Origin: Chitinophagales bacterium
GTDB taxonomy: Bacteria > Bacteroidota > Bacteroidia > Chitinophagales > Chitinophagaceae
Direction of reading: 5' to 3'
Assembly (NCBI GenBank): GCA_021323755.1
Contig: JAJPKJ010000009.1
Coordinates: 124,001 to 188,000, forward strand
Length of the DNA stretch: 64,000 bases
Shown one piece after another: positions 7,798-41,290 of this stretch (position 1 is its first letter; every line of letters begins with the position of its first letter). The notes below the pieces were generated by a model. The model saw only the letters and a program-made list of their open reading frames with translations. It was not told where the DNA came from and did no database searches. The translations under genes and the position numbers were made by a program.

Positions 7798-9411
7798 TCA
7801 ATGTCCTCCGCCGATCTGCTCATCAAAATTCAATCCTTGCGATTTTAATACCGTTCTCAATCTTAATGCAAGAAATGCTAGGGCAGCAAAACAACAGGCA
7901 GCCACCAAATACGAAATATGCATGTTATTTGTTTTATCTCCAACCGATCCCTGCAATGGCGGAATGACTGCTCCACCAAGGATCATCATGATTAAAAATG
8001 CTGATCCCTGGCTTGTATATTTTCCTAACCCTGCGATGCCTAAAGAAAAAATACAAGGCCACATTATAGAGCAACAAAGTCCGCCACTCATAAATGCGTA
8101 AACCGAAACAATTCCTTTTGTTGCGACTCCGAATACCATTGCAAATGCGGCGAGCAGGGCAAGTGTAAGTAATGTTTTAACAGGCTTTTCCTGACCGTAA
8201 AAGAAGGCAATTATTGCAATAATAATGCAAACAGCGTAGGCCCAAAGATCATGAATATCATTTCCTTTGAGAACATTGGCAACCAACACTACGCCAAATG
8301 CGATGAAAGGAACAACAATGGTAGCTATCCGTTTTCCCATTTTAGATAAATTAAAAACGCTGATCGCCCCGGTCCATCTTCCGATCATTAAACTTCCCCA
8401 ATACAATGAAATATATTTTGATATTTCGTTGTCATGAAGACCCGCCTCAGTAATATAACCCGGCGTTTTCAGCAGGGCGCCAAAATTATTATCGATGGTT
8501 ACTTCGACACCAACATATAAAAAGATGCCAATCATTCCCAATATCAGTTGCTGATATTTCATCGCCCCCCAACCTTCACTGTTCTTTGATGCGCTGGAAT
8601 AAGATGAAAATAAAATTATTAATATCATGACGAGCGTAACTGCTAATAATTCTACTTTGCCAATATTGGTGAGTTGTCCGATAATGATGATAACAATTAA
8701 AAACCCGGTCATTAAGGACAAGGACAAAGATGCTTTTCGAGAGCTTTCAAATATTGAATCATCCTTACCGGAAGGAAGTTTAGAAAATGTAAAAAATAAA
8801 GCCACTGCGGCGAACACACAGGCGACCAGGATATAGAAGTTATCAATATTGGCAACAGTTACGATTTTACTGGCGCCGCTGCCAACACTTCCAAATAAAA
8901 AGAAACTGATGATGAGTGGCCCGAGTGTTGTTCCTAAAGAATTAACGCCGCCGGCCAAATTCAATCTATGGGAACCAGTAGAAGGATCACCAAGTGCAAC
9001 AGCAAACGGTTGTGCCGCTGTTTGCTGCAATGAAAATCCCAATGCAACAATAAAATAAGAAACCAATATCAGCGGAAACGAATGCGCGTTCGCAGAAGGG
9101 ATCACCGCCAATGCACCTATAACGGATATCCATATCCCAACAATGATACCTCTTTTATAACCCATTTTATTGAGGATATCATAGCCCACCGCACTTGATA
9201 ATAAATATAAGATCAGGGAACCAACGAAATAAGCCCCATAAAAAGCGGAACCTATCAATTGCGATTCAAATTGGGTTAAATTGAATTGCGTTCGGCAAAA
9301 TGGAATGAACACACTGGATGATGCAGCTATAAATCCCCAGAAAAAAAATACAAGCACTAATGTAGCAAGCGCTCCCGTATTGGTTGGTTGTTTTGGTTGG
9401 TTCATGTGCAA
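7798..9411 (-). CDS. FucP/GluP-type sugar MFS transporter
   Basis: 537 residues with about twelve or more membrane segments. FFFWGFIAASSSVFIPF at the start and QQTAAQPFAVALGDPSTG plus RLNLAGGVNSLGTTLGPL near residue 150 are typical of the fucose-galactose-glucose:H+ symporter subfamily. It is longer than E. coli FucP (about 440 residues), with extra membrane segments in the middle (about residues 230-275). It would import a hexose by proton symport. A second ATG two codons in (9405) is an equally good start. The ROK kinase follows, and glgA starts divergently 233 bp away. Confidence 0.87.
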   Translation of the reverse strand: MHMNQPKQPTNTGALATLVLVFFFWGFIAASSSVFIPFCRTQFNLTQFESQLIGSAFYGAYFVGSLILYLLSSAVGYDILNKMGYKRGIIVGIWISVIGALAVIPSANAHSFPLILVSYFIVALGFSLQQTAAQPFAVALGDPSTGSHRLNLAGGVNSLGTTLGPLIISFFLFGSVGSGASKIVTVANIDNFYILVACVFAAVALFFTFSKLPSGKDDSIFESSRKASLSLSLMTGFLIVIIIIGQLTNIGKVELLAVTLVMILIILFSSYSSASKNSEGWGAMKYQQLILGMIGIFLYVGVEVTIDNNFGALLKTPGYITEAGLHDNEISKYISLYWGSLMIGRWTGAISVFNLSKMGKRIATIVVPFIAFGVVLVANVLKGNDIHDLWAYAVCIIIAIIAFFYGQEKPVKTLLTLALLAAFAMVFGVATKGIVSVYAFMSGGLCCSIMWPCIFSLGIAGLGKYTSQGSAFLIMMILGGAVIPPLQGSVGDKTNNMHISYLVAACCFAALAFLALRLRTVLKSQGLNFDEQIGGGH

Positions 9412-9643: not shown

Positions 9644-11056
9644 ATGGAAATAATACACGTTAGCGCCGAATGTTATCCTGTAGCAAAAGCCGGAGGATTA
9701 GGCGATGTTGTTGGTGCATTACCCAAATATTTGAATGAAGCCGGTCATATTGCAAAGGTGGTCATGCCCATGTACCGCACTAAATTTCTGAACGATAACG
9801 ATTGGGAGGTGGTGCACAAGGGTTATACTAATCTTGGAAGCTATTGGTTCACCTATACCATTATTAAGGAAAGAACAAACATACTCGGTTTCGATCTTTA
9901 TCTTGTCGATATCTTCGGATTGCTCGACAGAACAATGATCTATGGCTACGAGGACGATGCGCAACGCTTCACTTCATTTCAAATCGCAGTGGTGGACTGG
10001 ATCTCTTCCTGGTCACATCGTCCGGATGTAATTCATGTTCACGACCATCATGCAGGATTAATTCCTTTCATGGTGAAATATTGCTATCGTTATCAGCATT
10101 TGCAAAATATTCCCACCGTATTAACCATTCACAACGCACAATACCAAGGTTGGATGGGATGGGATAAGAGTTCATATATTCCAGCCTGGGATCCATGGAA
10201 AAGAGGAATGCTTGACTGGAAAGAAATGATAAACCCGTTGGCAAGTGGGGTGAAATGCGCGTGGAAAGTAACCACGGTAAGTCATAGTTATCTGGATGAA
10301 TTACGGGTTACAGCAAATGGAATGGAAGCTTTATTTGAGTACGAAAAAGGAAAATGCGTTGGGATATTGAATGGAATTGATAATATAGTTTGGGATCCCT
10401 CAACGGATAAATATATTAATGACCATTACTCGGTGAAGACCGTTGAAGAAGGAAAACTGAAAAACAAAAAATTGCTTTGCGAGACTTTTGATCTTGACAT
10501 TAATAAACCATTAATTGTATTTATTGGAAGACTGGTTGGAGAAAAAGGCGCAGATTTGTTACCGGCGGCAATTGGCGATTCTTATTATTATATCGGAAGA
10601 AAAATGAATTTTTTAATCCTTGGCAGTGGCTTTCCGCAGGTTGAAATTGAGTTGGAGCATTTGAAATCATTAAGCCAGGGCGACTACAATTTTTATGCAG
10701 GTTATAATGAAAGCCTGAGTCATCTAATGTATGCAGGCTCAGATTTTATATTAATGCCATCGCGTGTTGAACCCTGCGGTTTGAACCAGATGTATGCCAT
10801 GCGTTATGGGACAGTGCCAATGGTTCGTAACACAGGCGGATTGCGCGACACCGTAATTGATTATGGTGAGGCGGGTGGTTATGGAATAAGATTTAATAAT
10901 GCGATCGTGGGAGATATCACTCAATCCATCTGGCGTGCAGTGGAATTGTATCATGATTCAGAGAAAATGGAAGAAATTAGAAAGCAGATGATGGAGTTGG
11001 ATTTTAGTTGGGAATCGAGTGTAAAACAATATATAGATTTGTATAAAAGTTTGTGA
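9644..11056 (+). CDS. glgA: Glycogen synthase, GT5 (ADP-glucose)
   Basis: 470 residues, the usual length. KAGGLGDV at residues 15-22 is the ADP-glucose-binding KxGGLGDV motif of bacterial and plastid starch/glycogen synthases. HVHDHHAGLIP and LTIHNAQYQGW lie in the GT5 domain. FIGRLVGEKGADLL opens the GT-B C-terminal domain, and PSRVEPCGLNQMYAMRYG carries the catalytic-site EX7E segment. The enzyme extends alpha-1,4-glucan from ADP-glucose. glgC, which makes ADP-glucose, follows 83 bp downstream. No branching enzyme (glgB) is in the window. Confidence 0.96.
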   Translation: MEIIHVSAECYPVAKAGGLGDVVGALPKYLNEAGHIAKVVMPMYRTKFLNDNDWEVVHKGYTNLGSYWFTYTIIKERTNILGFDLYLVDIFGLLDRTMIYGYEDDAQRFTSFQIAVVDWISSWSHRPDVIHVHDHHAGLIPFMVKYCYRYQHLQNIPTVLTIHNAQYQGWMGWDKSSYIPAWDPWKRGMLDWKEMINPLASGVKCAWKVTTVSHSYLDELRVTANGMEALFEYEKGKCVGILNGIDNIVWDPSTDKYINDHYSVKTVEEGKLKNKKLLCETFDLDINKPLIVFIGRLVGEKGADLLPAAIGDSYYYIGRKMNFLILGSGFPQVEIELEHLKSLSQGDYNFYAGYNESLSHLMYAGSDFILMPSRVEPCGLNQMYAMRYGTVPMVRNTGGLRDTVIDYGEAGGYGIRFNNAIVGDITQSIWRAVELYHDSEKMEEIRKQMMELDFSWESSVKQYIDLYKSL

Positions 11057-37348: not shown

Positions 37349-38281
37349 TTAGTTTTCCGTTTTTCCACCGGCAAGCAAATACAAGACAGCCATTCTAACG
37401 GCAACCCCATTTTCTACCTGCTGCAAAATTATTGATTGTTTACTATCGGCGGCATCACTATCTAATTCAACACCACGATTGATCGGACCAGGATGCATAA
37501 TAATGATCTCTTTTTTCAGGCTATCGAGCAATTTCTTATTAACACCATATGCCAGACTGTATTCGCGCAGTGAAGAAAACAAAACCTGGTTTTGTCTTTC
37601 TAACTGAATGCGCAATACGTTTGCAACATCACACCATTCCAAAGCTTTTTTAAGATCGTATTCTACGCGAATATCAAAAGCCTGCTGAATATATTTGGGA
37701 ATTAAGGTTGGAGGTCCGGCAACAGTTATTTCAGCACCCATTTTTTTTAGCAGATGAATATTGCTTAAGGCCACGCGCGAGTGCATAATATCGCCGATGA
37801 TCGCTACTTTTTTCCCTTCCAGCGTTCCTAATTTTTCACGAATGGAGAATGCATCGAGCAATGCCTGCGTTGGATGCTCATTGATCCCGTCGCCGGCATT
37901 TACAATGGCTGCAGGAATGTGTTTGGCCAAAAAATGGGGAGCGCCGCTTGCGCTGTGGCGCATCACCACCATATCCACTTTCATGGATAAAATATTATTC
38001 ACCGTATCCAATAATGTTTCGCCTTTGGAGACGGACGATGCAGATGCGGTAAAATTAATCGTGTCTGCAGACAATCTTTTTTCAGCCAACTCAAAAGAAA
38101 TCCTGGTGCGCGTGGAATTTTCATAAAACAAGTTTACGATGGTCACATCGCGTAAGGTTGGCACTTTCTTTATCGGTCGCTGTAAAACTTCTTTGAATTG
38201 AGTGGCAGTATCTAAAATGAGTTGAATATCGGTAGGCGCGAGATCTCTAATGCCAAGAAGATGTCTGGTGCTTAGTTGCAT
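37349..38281 (-). CDS. pyrB: Aspartate carbamoyltransferase, catalytic subunit
   Basis: 310 residues. FYENSTRTRISFE (STRTR at about 56-60) binds carbamoyl phosphate. VVMRHSASGAP, AGDGINEHPTQALLDAFSI, VAIIGDIMHSRVA and IMHPGPINRGVE are all present, so the enzyme is complete. It makes carbamoyl aspartate, the first committed step of pyrimidine synthesis. In many bacteria pyrR lies directly upstream; here pyrR is 2.4 kb away on the same strand with other genes in between. Confidence 0.97.
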   Translation of the reverse strand: MQLSTRHLLGIRDLAPTDIQLILDTATQFKEVLQRPIKKVPTLRDVTIVNLFYENSTRTRISFELAEKRLSADTINFTASASSVSKGETLLDTVNNILSMKVDMVVMRHSASGAPHFLAKHIPAAIVNAGDGINEHPTQALLDAFSIREKLGTLEGKKVAIIGDIMHSRVALSNIHLLKKMGAEITVAGPPTLIPKYIQQAFDIRVEYDLKKALEWCDVANVLRIQLERQNQVLFSSLREYSLAYGVNKKLLDSLKKEIIIMHPGPINRGVELDSDAADSKQSIILQQVENGVAVRMAVLYLLAGGKTEN

Positions 38282-38334
38282 TAAAAAGCGAAATTAGGGG
38301 AAAAGATTGAATTTATTTTAAAATCTCAAAAGTC

Positions 38335-38358
38335 GGTAATGACGCGTTTTGAAATTAT
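38335..38358 (+). repeat. Left copy of 24-nt inverted repeat flanking the pyrR-pyrB insert
   Basis: Starts GGTAATGACGCG and ends TTTTGAAATTAT. It matches the reverse complement of 40635-40658 at 22 of 24 positions. It lies 54 bp upstream of the pyrB start. Confidence 0.75.
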
Positions 38359-38373
38359 TTGAAATATGTTCGT

Positions 38374-38817
38374 CTACCTTTTAAATATTGTATGTTCTTT
38401 GATATAGTCATAATATCCGCGATCAGGATTTATGCCGGCCGAGCCGGAGTCTCTTGCATGCCCTTTGCTTCCTACCCATTCTATACTTTGAGATGCATTG
38501 ATGTTTAGCGTATCACCTAGTTTTCTTGGGGAGGCATAATCATAGACTTCAGCACTCTTGCCTTTAATTATACAGAAATAAAATTCTACAGAATCTCTAG
38601 GATCATAATTTTGCACATTCGAATTCAGAATCTCTAATCTAAGAATGCCATAATTATGGTTGCTGGGAATCTCTATAATCTTTGTTATTACACCCGAAAA
38701 AATAAGATGAGTTTGTTCGAATGATGATTTGTTTCGAGCACGTTCTATACCCCACCGATTCACCCAATACCCAAACCAAATAATGCCAACAATAATAAGG
38801 ATAAGGAATCGCCTCAT
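38374..38817 (-). CDS. Hypothetical single-pass membrane protein
   Basis: 147 residues. The N-terminus RRFLILIIVGIIWFGYWVN is one membrane helix or uncleaved signal. The rest (LIFSGVITKIIEIPSNHNYGILRLEIL, SVEFYFCIIKGKSAEVYDYA) looks like a small beta-rich domain, possibly exposed outside the cytoplasm, and ends with a basic HTIFKR. I recognise no family. It lies inside the segment bounded by the 24-nt inverted repeat between pyrB and pyrR, on their strand. Confidence 0.6.
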   Translation of the reverse strand: MRRFLILIIVGIIWFGYWVNRWGIERARNKSSFEQTHLIFSGVITKIIEIPSNHNYGILRLEILNSNVQNYDPRDSVEFYFCIIKGKSAEVYDYASPRKLGDTLNINASQSIEWVGSKGHARDSGSAGINPDRGYYDYIKEHTIFKR

Positions 38818-38923
38818 AGATCAATATTTTGTCGGGTTGGTTAAATGTGGCAATTAAAGTTAGCAATTATTTAGTTTCACTTATTTTCTTGTATGAGCCT
38901 CTTTTATTAGGCGCTTCGACTGG

Positions 38924-38940
38924 AACTAAGTTAGCAATAT
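38924..38940 (+). repeat. Left copy of 17-bp inner inverted repeat
   Basis: AACTAAGTTAGCAATAT, an exact reverse-complement match to 39756-39772. The core AAGTTAGCAAT also occurs at 38857-38867 in the same direction. Confidence 0.7.
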
Positions 38941-38962
38941 CTTCAAAAGTCGTTACTTTTAA

Positions 38963-38988
38963 GAAAAAACTGCCTGTATTTTAGGCAG
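38963..38988 (-). terminator. Rho-independent terminator (minus strand)
   Basis: CTGCCT (38970-38975), 7-nt loop, AGGCAG (38983-38988). On the minus strand it is followed by six T. The nearest upstream gene on that strand is pyrR, 1.7 kb away, so it terminates no close gene and may be a relic within the insert. Confidence 0.5.
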
Positions 38989-39092
38989 AATAGAATTAGT
39001 CTATATTCAACTAGCGCTTTGATGTTATAATTTTTATAAGGAAACAATTTTTCCTTCTGTCATTCTATCAATAAATCTATGTTGCGGAAACT

Positions 39093-39527
39093 ATGCGACT
39101 GAAAAAAATGACAATTTTATTTTTAGCTTCACTTCCAGTAGCAGTTGGAATTTTGTGCAATACTTGTTTTTCCTTGCGTGCATATAGAAAAGATTTGCTT
39201 TCTGATAACAAAGACCTCATTGATAATGCTTGTTTTAAGTTGGGAGAAATAAAGGATACTGCCGCGGTGAAACTATTATTAACGAAAATCTTAGACCCGA
39301 GAATGTCGACAGATTTTAGGTTTAAGGGAATGACCGTGAACTATTGTAAGCTTTCTGCATTACAGAAGATTTCCGGAGTTGGAAAAGGGATTAAGCTCGA
39401 CCAATTTAAAGTTGACACTCTCACAACAATTTTTTATATCGATTGGGCGATAAAAAGCGGTTACATTAAAAGCAGAGAAGAAGTTGATATCTACTTCTAC
39501 AAAGAGGGACTGCATATCAAAAATTGA
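39093..39527 (+). CDS. Hypothetical exported HEAT-like repeat protein
   Basis: 144 residues. The N-terminus (MTILFLASLPVAVGILCNTC) is hydrophobic and probably an export signal, perhaps with a lipobox-like LCNTC. The section YRKDLLSDNKDLIDNACFKLGEIKDTAAVKLLL resembles one HEAT-type helix pair, where a unit loses or gains by 'lifting' a repeat of about 30 residues. The rest is unassigned. It is AT-rich and lies between the two 17-bp inverted repeat copies. Confidence 0.55.
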   Translation: MRLKKMTILFLASLPVAVGILCNTCFSLRAYRKDLLSDNKDLIDNACFKLGEIKDTAAVKLLLTKILDPRMSTDFRFKGMTVNYCKLSALQKISGVGKGIKLDQFKVDTLTTIFYIDWAIKSGYIKSREEVDIYFYKEGLHIKN

Positions 39528-39600
39528 TTCTTATTTCAAAACCTGAATGGGGATACGCATTTCCGTTAATTATGTAAATGATGGGCACTAACTATTTATT

Positions 39601-39668
39601 GTGGTCAAATACTTCCGGCGGATCATGATCATGCAAATCGGCGCCAGGTGGTCAAGGTCCTCCGGCGC
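39601..39668. mobile_element. Possible IS21-family terminus relic
   Basis: Two imperfect direct repeats, GTGGTCAAATACTTCCGGCGG's first 20 bases at 39601-39620 and a 21-bp copy at 39648-39668, share 16 of 21 positions and are 47 bp apart. Tandem copies of about 20 bp at each end are characteristic of IS21-family elements, and the GTGGTCAA...TCCGGCG wording resembles such ends as I remember them. No istA/istB transposase gene is present in the window. Confidence 0.4.
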
Positions 39669-39755
39669 TAACTCGAACCCAATAGAACTGAAAAATTATC
39701 AGAATTTGCCGAAAATTTTAACCTAATTCTGTCCAAGAATTAAGGGGTCGATACA

Positions 39756-39772
39756 ATATTGCTAACTTAGTT
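39756..39772 (-). repeat. Right copy of 17-bp inner inverted repeat
   Basis: ATATTGCTAACTTAGTT, the exact reverse complement of 38924-38940, 816 bp downstream of it. The two copies enclose the HEAT-like gene and the IS21-like relic. Confidence 0.7.
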
Positions 39773-39843
39773 GTTATTGAAGCATCTAAGAAAAGAGATA
39801 AATATAAACACACCAACAAATAACCAAAACAAGAAACTAGAAT

Positions 39844-40596
39844 ATGGAAGTACACCACCACCCTGACCTGCATCATAGACCCAAAAAATGGAAGGAATAT
39901 CTATTAGAATTCTTAATGATATTTCTTGCTGTGACACTTGGTTTTTTTGCAGAGAATATACGCGAATCTTTAGTGGAACAGAATAAGGAAAAGCAGTTTA
40001 TTTTATCAATGATTGAAGACTTGAAGTCAGATACTATCATATTTCGCCAAAACATTGATAACTGGTATGGAAACACAATCCAGATAGATACATTGGTGGC
40101 CTTATTAACTAATGCCGATATTAAAAATAAATCAGGACGTATCTATAATCTGGAAAGAGTAGCTACTCGCAATATTACTCTACCATTTTACAATAGTCGC
40201 ACATTTGAGCAAATGAAAAATTCAGGGAGTCTCACGCTCATACGAAAGGCAGCAATAGCAAATGCAATTACGAATTATTATAATAGCATCAGGAGGCTCG
40301 ATGAATTTAGAGCCCTTTTTAGTGGAACTCATGAACAATTGATAAAAGATGAATACCTGATTTTCGACAGTTACACTCTTTTTCAAACAAAGCAGAAGAG
40401 ACCGTACAAATTGCTAACCATCACTGGAAACCCTTCATTTACCAAGTTCGACACAAAAGATTTTAATCAGTATCTGGCTCGTCTTAACCGCTATTATACC
40501 TTGAATCTGGTTATATTAGATTGGGTAGCGAATTATTACCTCCCTGCAACAAAAAAACTGCTTTCCTTATTACAAACTAATTACGGAAATGAATGA
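39844..40596 (+). CDS. His-rich membrane-anchored protein of a Bacteroidota-specific family
   Basis: 250 residues. The start MEVHHHPDLHHRPKKWKEYL is His-rich and basic, followed by one membrane helix (LLEFLMIFLAVTLGFFAEN) and then long helices (NKEKQFILSMIEDLKSDTIIF..., RKAAIANAITNYYNSIRRL). The combination of an HHH-type leader, EFLMIFLAVTLGF and RESL/EQNKEKQF is a recurrent, still poorly described family in Chitinophagaceae as I remember it. Probably the helical part is outside or beneath the inner membrane; direction uncertain. Function unknown. It sits at the pyrR end of the inserted segment. Confidence 0.68.
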   Translation: MEVHHHPDLHHRPKKWKEYLLEFLMIFLAVTLGFFAENIRESLVEQNKEKQFILSMIEDLKSDTIIFRQNIDNWYGNTIQIDTLVALLTNADIKNKSGRIYNLERVATRNITLPFYNSRTFEQMKNSGSLTLIRKAAIANAITNYYNSIRRLDEFRALFSGTHEQLIKDEYLIFDSYTLFQTKQKRPYKLLTITGNPSFTKFDTKDFNQYLARLNRYYTLNLVILDWVANYYLPATKKLLSLLQTNYGNE

Positions 40597-40634
40597 AGAA
40601 AAGCACGAACGCACAACATTCGGTTTGCCGCTGG

Positions 40635-40658
40635 ATAATTTCAAAATGCGTCACTACC
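40635..40658 (-). repeat. Right copy of 24-nt inverted repeat flanking the pyrR-pyrB insert
   Basis: On the plus strand starts ATAATTTCAAAA and ends TGCGTCACTACC; reverse complement of 38335-38358 with two mismatches. It lies 63 bp past the pyrR stop, outside the third inserted gene. Confidence 0.75.
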
Positions 40659-40720
40659 CAAAAGTCGGGAGATGCCCATTTCTGCATGCTGGTCACCGGT
40701 AACCGGCAATCATGATTTTT

Positions 40721-41290
40721 TTATACTAATGCCACCTGCTCTTCTCCATCTTTTTCTTTCCAAAAGACTTTTACTTTTTGTGAAATGATCGAATCGATGG
40801 ATTTGCCGATATAATCTGCCTGTATGGGTAATTGGCGACTAAATCTTCTGTCAATTAAAATACACAATTCAACTTTGGATGGTCTGCCATAATCGAGCAG
40901 TGCGTCAAGCGCCGCGCGGATGGTTCTGCCCGTATATAATACATCATCAATTAAGATGACATTTTTATTTTCGATCGAAAAAGGAATATTGGTTTGATTG
41001 ACATTATGCAAACCCTGTCGCACATCATCACGGTAAAAAGTGATATCTAATTTGCCATAACAGATCTTTTCGCCAGGCAGTTGTTTTTTTATTTCTGCGA
41101 CAATTCTGTCAGAAAAAAATATTCCTCTTGGCTGAAGCCCGATTAAGACGGTGTTTGCAAGATCAATATGATTTTCGAGCAATTGATTGCTTAACCGCTG
41201 AATGGTAAAAGCCAATTGTTGTTCGCTGAGAATGGTTTTCAAAAATGAAAATTTGTATAAAAATAATTCAAACGCTTTTAATATAAACAA
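40721..41290 (-). CDS. pyrR: PyrR: pyrimidine regulator / uracil phosphoribosyltransferase
   Basis: 189 residues from ATG 41290. A TTG at 41242 would start MKTILSEQQ, closer to typical PyrR proteins (about 175 residues), so the first 16 residues may not be translated. RLSNQLLENH, LIGLQPRGIFFSDRI, YGKLDITFYRDD and the PRPP loop VILIDDVLYTGRTIRAAL define PyrR. In firmicutes it binds pyr mRNA to control attenuation and also has weak uracil phosphoribosyltransferase activity; whether it binds RNA here is unknown. pyrB lies downstream but behind the inserted segment. Confidence 0.92.
   Translation of the reverse strand: MFILKAFELFLYKFSFLKTILSEQQLAFTIQRLSNQLLENHIDLANTVLIGLQPRGIFFSDRIVAEIKKQLPGEKICYGKLDITFYRDDVRQGLHNVNQTNIPFSIENKNVILIDDVLYTGRTIRAALDALLDYGRPSKVELCILIDRRFSRQLPIQADYIGKSIDSIISQKVKVFWKEKDGEEQVALV

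Follow-up and report, generated by a model that had tools for sequence, protein, structure and literature searches.

The pyrR-pyrB interval and its inserted unit

A 64-kb stretch of the genome of a Chitinophagales bacterium (assembly GCA_021323755.1, contig JAJPKJ010000009.1, positions 124,001 to 188,000), called the window here, contains the genes pyrB and pyrR, both on the minus strand. Between them lie three small genes in mixed orientation, orf1 (147 amino acids, minus strand), orf2 (144, plus), and orf3 (250, plus). These are enclosed by a pair of 24-nucleotide inverted arms. An initial annotation of this DNA had identified the flanking genes, the three small genes, and the near-identical arms, and had proposed a discrete inserted unit, possibly a small mobile module. 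Each of these points was borne out. The unit (38335-40658) is most likely a mobile insertion cassette of an IS1-type transposon family (IS, insertion sequence) that was moved in trans into the pyrR-pyrB interval, a reading to which we give a probability of roughly 0.88.

The arms are identical at 22 of 24 positions, and the unit measures 2324 bp with both of them included. None of 100 shuffled versions of the window contained a comparable arm pair. Directly outside each arm stand 8 identical bp, CAAAAGTC (8/8), which represent a target-site duplication. This duplication had been overlooked in the initial annotation, as had an internal inverted pair at 38899-38940 and 39756-39797. All 64 kb were scanned for pairs 60-6000 bp apart that combine inverted ends matching at 14 or more of 20 positions with an exact 8-bp flanking duplication. 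Only one pair was returned, the arms of the unit, at 18/20. In total, 20 first-order Markov surrogates of the window gave 16 pairs at 14/20, two at 15/20, one at 16/20, and none higher. The ends of the unit, GGTAATG and GGTAGTG, together with the 8-bp duplication, fit the end type of the IS1 family. The features of the locus are listed in Table 1.

Table 1. Features of the unit and its flanks in window coordinates.
Feature	Position	Strand	Evidence
pyrB, aspartate carbamoyltransferase, host flank	37349..38281	-	ORF (open reading frame) list, family match
Left target-site duplication copy, CAAAAGTC	38327..38334	+	Identical to 40659-40666, both copies adjoining the arms on the outside
Terminal inverted repeat, pyrB side, GGTAATGACGCGTTTTGAAATTAT	38335..38358	+	Ends of related transposons, GGTAGTG...TTTGAAATT
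orf1, 147 amino acids, cargo	38374..38817	-	ORF list
Suspected relic of an IS1-type transposase C-terminus, directed to the pyrB-side end	38870..38965	-	32-residue open stretch
orf2, 144 amino acids, cargo	39093..39527	+	ORF list
Dispersed non-coding repeat relic	39582..39755	.	Also elsewhere in own genome
Second suspected transposase C-terminal relic, reading to the pyrR-side end	39755..39817	+	Complementarity to first relic
orf3, 250 amino acids, cargo, paralogous family of the genus	39844..40596	+	ORF list, genome matches
Terminal inverted repeat, pyrR side, GGTAGTGACGCATTTTGAAATTAT	40635..40658	-	
Right target-site duplication copy, CAAAAGTC	40659..40666	+	Matches left copy
pyrR, pyr regulator/uracil phosphoribosyltransferase, host flank	40721..41290	-	ORF list, family match

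A search of the bacterium's own genome for the arm repeat, as the initial annotation had suggested, returned three copies within three mismatches. These are the two arms and one copy with two mismatches on another contig, C34. With so few copies, the repeat is not a common intergenic repeat in this genome. An orf3 paralogue lies immediately upstream of the third copy, and about 60 nucleotides there can be aligned with the window. This copy was considered as the end of a second complete unit and rejected as such, as the 11.3 kb fetched contain no partner end with another CAGGATTC.

The empty site in the genus

The pyrB-pyrR stretch was searched against 33 genomes of the genus, the bacterium's own included, and 32 gave some match. 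No pyrB match was found in G005, G006, G007, and G021, and the pyrB loci of 28 relatives were compared. The two genes are neighbors in 26 of these 28 loci, with intervals of 26-542 bp, none of which is large enough for the three genes. This is the comparison with empty sites that the initial annotation had proposed, made at the level of the genus. The two exceptions are G019, where pyrB is on one contig and pyrR on another, and G028, where the locus ends at a contig end. In G019 (L016, L048), the pair may have separated by another route.

When the unit and one copy of the duplication are subtracted, the interval in the window is 107 bp. In 15 of the 26 relatives the gap is only 26-63 bp, and the insertion may therefore uncouple transcription of pyrB from that of pyrR. 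Too strong a claim of uncoupling is weakened by the three relatives closest in pyrB DNA, G014, G020, and G024, which already have long intervals of 542, 169, and 538 bp. Some loosening of the pair may predate the unit. The G014 (L013) and G024 (L015) intervals look alike by eye and seemingly contain a related short reading frame.

IS1-type transposons with the same ends

A search of 294 genomes of the host's family gave matches to a related transposase in 25. Nineteen stretches were fetched, and in nine of them GGTAGTG...TTTGAAA ends, 2.1-5.0 kb apart and with exact 8-bp duplications as read by eye, surround an IS1-type transposase. The transposase is a single continuous frame in eight of these nine elements and is in three pieces in L123. 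A wider scan of contigs yielded at least 543 transposase relatives, and the ends were analyzed in the best 80 loci. Ends identical at 18-20 of 20 positions, together with an exact 8-bp duplication, were found in 53 of the 80. When the duplication was read 20, 40, 60, 100, or 150 bp further on, none of the 80 loci qualified at any shift. The 53 elements, two of which coincide with two of the nine, range from 1947 to 4908 bp with a median of 3072 bp.

These elements are also present on plasmids. A match was found in 31 plasmid records, and both of those examined (Acidiphilium and Mesorhizobium) possess the ends and the duplication. Several plasmid relatives have been annotated as "IS1 family transposase." In both examined copies an IS1 family transposase and hypothetical proteins are annotated, and the element itself is unmarked. 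The Mesorhizobium copy also has an annotated "histone H1" and a helix-turn-helix (HTH) protein.

Ten of these transposases were aligned (alignment A3), and all ten match PF03400 DDE_Tnp_IS1; for L112 the score is 33.4 bits with a cut-off of 24.1. All ten also match NCBIfam transpos_IS1, which is the best NCBIfam match of L112. Three residues are invariant in the alignment, D66, D137, and E204, which we take to be the catalytic residues. Against the assignment to IS1, DDE_Tnp_IS240 is also matched by eight of the ten, and it scores 28.4 bits to the 27.9 bits of PF03400 in the N-terminally incomplete P0001.

In a tree of 85 transposases, 79 rows carry a phylum label and ten phyla are represented. 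The labels are clustered on the tree, with 11 changes where 9 is the least possible and shuffled labels give 28.4. This clustering indicates a wide spread and is no proof of transfer between phyla.

Layout and cargo of the full elements

A layout catalogue was assembled from 60 elements, the 53 above and seven from the set of 19 stretches. The DNA to the left of the transposase match is 721-2897 bp long in the 53. To the right it is less than 200 bp in 26 of the 53 and 200-1472 bp in the other 27. All 53 carry passenger genes between IS-type ends.

A cluster of small basic proteins (single-linkage BLAST, median 82 amino acids) is represented in 43 of the 60 elements, and its strict motif in 20 of the 60. 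On the left side and on the strand of the transposase lie 38 of the 48 ORFs in this cluster, and in six of nine elements the gene starts 15-72 bp inside the left end. Copies from Bacteroidota follow the pattern GG..GGKARA....AKKAA.ARW. The protein matches no Pfam family. It could possibly be an accessory transposition factor. In Mesorhizobium loti (CP050295.1; L274, 2075-2284), the gene at this position is the one annotated as "histone H1."

The genes in the remaining left-hand space, the left slot, were explored with Pfam (E <= 0.001) and PADLOC (E <= 1e-5). Among the 25 of 45 families listed for the 100 ORFs scanned, Pfam gave HTH_3 (19), Peptidase_M78 (ImmA/IrrE; 16), and P63C (9), as well as one each of RhuM, an AbiEii-like AAA domain, and SocA. 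Among the 25 of 204 models listed by PADLOC were PD-Lambda-2_B (12), RmrA (up to 11), and capP (8). The PADLOC names indicate likeness to defence families, and the counts stand without a background rate of such genes. The 32 ORFs of the right slot include PemK/MazF (2), NYN (2), Abi_2 (2), a dCTP deaminase (1), and SocA (1).

In one pair of elements the slots differ while the transposase and the ends agree. L114 and L115, both from G274, are alike in the left end (94% over 307 bp), in the transposase (93% over 884 bp), and in their final 25 bp; a comparison at E 1e-3 gave no further shared stretch. Right-slot cargo could be gained if an older right end is skipped, and this was considered for the 27 elements whose right arm is long. 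It found no support, as none has an internal end of at least 16/20 (the best is 15/20).

Derivatives without a transposase

The family also leaves derivatives that have no transposase. In G024, of the same genus, the end pattern is matched 45 times, and no transposase match was found. Fifteen of its stretches (L161-L173, L179, and L180) were inspected. Eight contain an end pair that is flanked by an exact 8-bp duplication and spans 60-241 bp, lengths typical of miniature inverted-repeat transposable elements (MITEs). Three more contain a pair with a duplication that is off by one base, and four are without such a pair. An additional end pair, 392 bp in length, was found in G010. The MITEs of G024 indicate that transposase-less derivatives arise from this family, and the unit in the window would be one that bears cargo. 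Across the genus, a transposase match is present in 10 of the 33 genomes, and a near-full, stop-free frame in only one, G031.

In a separate case, L175 (G010:C24), right-type ends that point the same way lie 757 bp apart, at 1803 and 2560, with a 215-amino-acid frame between them. These are possibly stacked right ends or nested insertions.

Contents of the unit

No transposase gene was found in the unit, and its three ORFs match no transposase family. They also match no Pfam or NCBIfam family above the cut-off and nothing in PADLOC. Two of the genes are rare in the host's family: with the bacterium's own genome counted, orf1 was found in 5 of the 294 genomes (4 others) and orf2 in 9 (8 others). 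A low-confidence model of the orf1 product (mean predicted local distance difference test score, pLDDT, 50) has a hydrophobic N-terminal helix followed by strands. The model of the orf3 product is mostly helical (mean pLDDT 70, predicted template modeling score 0.59), and a Foldseek comparison with PDB returned no match at E <= 0.001. Several paralogues of orf3 are present in the bacterium's own genome (C6, C34, and C63) and in the genus. Members of this family begin with MEVHHHP..KEYFLEFLMIFLAVTLGFFAEN, and G020 has nine DNA matches within 9 kb (G020:C15:764796-773561).

Two short stretches of the unit are suspected to be what is left of transposase genes. The first relic matches the transposase C-terminus of G014 at E 8.1e-5. 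Against a hidden Markov model (HMM) of 85 transposases it reaches E 0.15, and it is the sole one of 2550 window frames at E <= 1. The second gives a peptide match at E 0.5 and is undetected by the transposase HMM. The DNAs of the two are 81% complementary over 42 nucleotides, which is the internal inverted pair described above. Each half of the unit has the same order, a stretch like a transposase C-terminus, a cargo ORF, and an arm, and the two halves are oppositely directed.

The non-coding repeat in the middle of the unit recurs with 88% identity over 150 bp at C22, and there are several further copies of about 80-90 bp. Probably, this dispersed repeat represents the relic ends of another transposable element. 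The repeat, which has TTGACCACC/GGTGGTCAA motifs, also lies in L043 (G000:C22) at 2311-2398, 8282-8366, and 10443-10605, with matches of about 80-163 bp.

Relation to known mobile elements

The ends of IS1 family elements follow a GG...TG rule. The related elements described here are like the IS1 family in their DDE_Tnp_IS1 domain, their GG...TG ends, and their duplication of 8-9 bp. The ISMhu11 group of IS1 consists of insertion sequences with passenger genes, like IS1595, and a 2009 work by Siguier and colleagues reportedly deals with IS1595, IS1, and passenger genes.

The IS1 target duplication is 8 or 9 bp, and classic IS1 is a 768-bp element with insA and insB genes and a frameshift (PMC12428005). 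In contrast, the related elements are 1.9-5 kb long, have one continuous transposase frame with no insA/insB frameshift, and carry cargo on one or both sides. Since the unit in the window has no transposase ORF, it is classed as a derivative rather than an IS1 element. Preliminary work found that a cat gene placed between IS1 ends transposes in Escherichia coli (PMC12428005), which makes it plausible that a cassette could move with the ends alone.

A mobile insertion cassette is defined by two inverted repeats, no transposase inside, a target duplication, and one or more cargo genes (PMC3913671). The unit has these structural features. It is like MIC231 and the qnrD mic in its IS-related inverted repeats, target duplication, cargo, and lack of a transposase gene. 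The IS231A transposase moves MIC231A1, in which a single gene takes the place of the transposase (PMC3913671). The unit differs in its IS1-type ends, its three genes, and its halves, which are both right-like.

Transporter IS are insertion sequences with passenger genes unrelated to transposition (PMC3129680), and this feature is shared by the 53 elements. Tn3-family transposons carry toxin-antitoxin genes beside the transposition module (PMC7157771). They differ from the related elements in transposase, ends, and duplication, and the listed Pfam matches of the cargo include no resolvase family. Defence genes are common as cargo of Tn7-like transposons (PMC8649781), whereas the related elements are 2-5 kb in size and have an IS1-type transposase.

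The initial annotation had called the module possibly undescribed, and this stands in part. No description of this element family was found in titles and the starts of abstracts, ISfinder group names aside, nor was the layout of a left-end small basic gene with two cargo slots found described. The concepts of the cassette and of the IS with passenger genes have been published (PMC3913671, PMC3129680).

Origin of the unit

The proposed path to the present arrangement begins with an IS1-type DDE transposase that, acting in trans, would have recognized both 24-nucleotide ends. It would have transferred the three-gene unit, by a cut or a copy route, to the pyrR-pyrB interval, where 8 bp of target were duplicated. 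The helper transposase would later have been lost. The unit itself could be built from two right halves placed face to face, with orf2 and the dispersed non-coding relic between them. Each half, made up of a transposase C-terminus, a cargo gene, and the right terminal repeat, would once have been the right end of a full element. Both arms look like right ends because neither has a small basic gene beside it, the motif of that gene having no match within the unit, and because a suspected transposase C-terminus is aimed at each. Since the third copy of the end has an orf3 paralogue next to it and about 60 nucleotides in common with the window, there were probably once two right halves with a gene of the orf3 type.

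Several results speak against this account. No transposase of this kind was found in the bacterium's own genome at E 0.001, and a helper is therefore hypothetical here. Both relics are short and weak. The third end copy has neither a partner end nor a second copy of the duplication. In the fetched loci, such an end was seen near none of the orf1 or orf2 homologues and near only one homologue of orf3, that on C34, where the copy has two mismatches and is outside the strict pattern. A past in which full elements carried the three genes is therefore hypothetical. Of the 80 loci, 27 have no end pair by the rule used. Many of these are short of flank, and L183, L200, L224, L232, L242, and L259 have about 6 kb of flank on both sides and still no end pair. 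The full-length L112 transposase falls under the NCBI IS1 cut-off, at 67.1 of 100 bits, and the family is therefore IS1-like but divergent.

The cassette could also be the remnant of one ordinary full element, with cargo on both sides of its transposase, that was inserted at this site and from which internal deletion and rearrangement later removed the transposase. The unit would then never have moved in its present form, and the inverted relics would have arisen after the insertion. This history is possible but less likely. It differs from movement of a finished cassette only in the order of events, and the probabilities of the two overlap. The duplication dates the original insertion only, which suits rearrangement, and the repeat relic that abuts the second transposase relic indicates other events inside the unit. 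However, a single inserted element is harder to reconcile with two right-like ends, each with a suspected transposase C-terminus directed at it, and with arms that both lack the small basic gene seen in many full elements (43/60; strict motif 20/60).

The initial annotation had also raised the possibility that recombination between two copies of a dispersed repeat brought in the three genes. The arms are indeed near-identical and inverted, but this idea did not survive and is now very unlikely. The repeat has just three copies in the genome, homologous recombination is not expected to leave an 8-bp duplication outside the arms, and the same ends with 8-bp duplications delimit transposons elsewhere. 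Least credible is that the arms are 3' untranslated or terminator-like sequences that travel with their genes, as the third copy with its 60 or so alignable nucleotides downstream of an orf3 paralogue could suggest, for the 8-bp match would then be due to chance, which is estimated at about 2 in 100000 for a fixed place (0.26 to the power 8), and none of the 20 surrogates had a pair as strong.

Significance

The unit can possibly be seen as a fragment of a family that crosses phyla, a proposal that we consider evenly balanced. In this family a fixed frame would run from the left end through the small basic protein, the left slot, the transposase, and the right slot to the right end. Both slots would exchange cargo, with the left one serving as a shuttle for genes of toxin-antitoxin and anti-phage types. 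Such elements would shed MITEs and transposase-less cassettes, among them units with two right ends, like the one between pyrR and pyrB.

Because the ends and the 8-bp duplication mark the exact limits of each element, no guesswork is needed to list the cargo, that of transposase-less cassettes included. A pair of 24-nucleotide repeats leads to a family of elements in several bacterial phyla with small and mostly unstudied sets of genes, many of them toxin-antitoxin- or defence-like.

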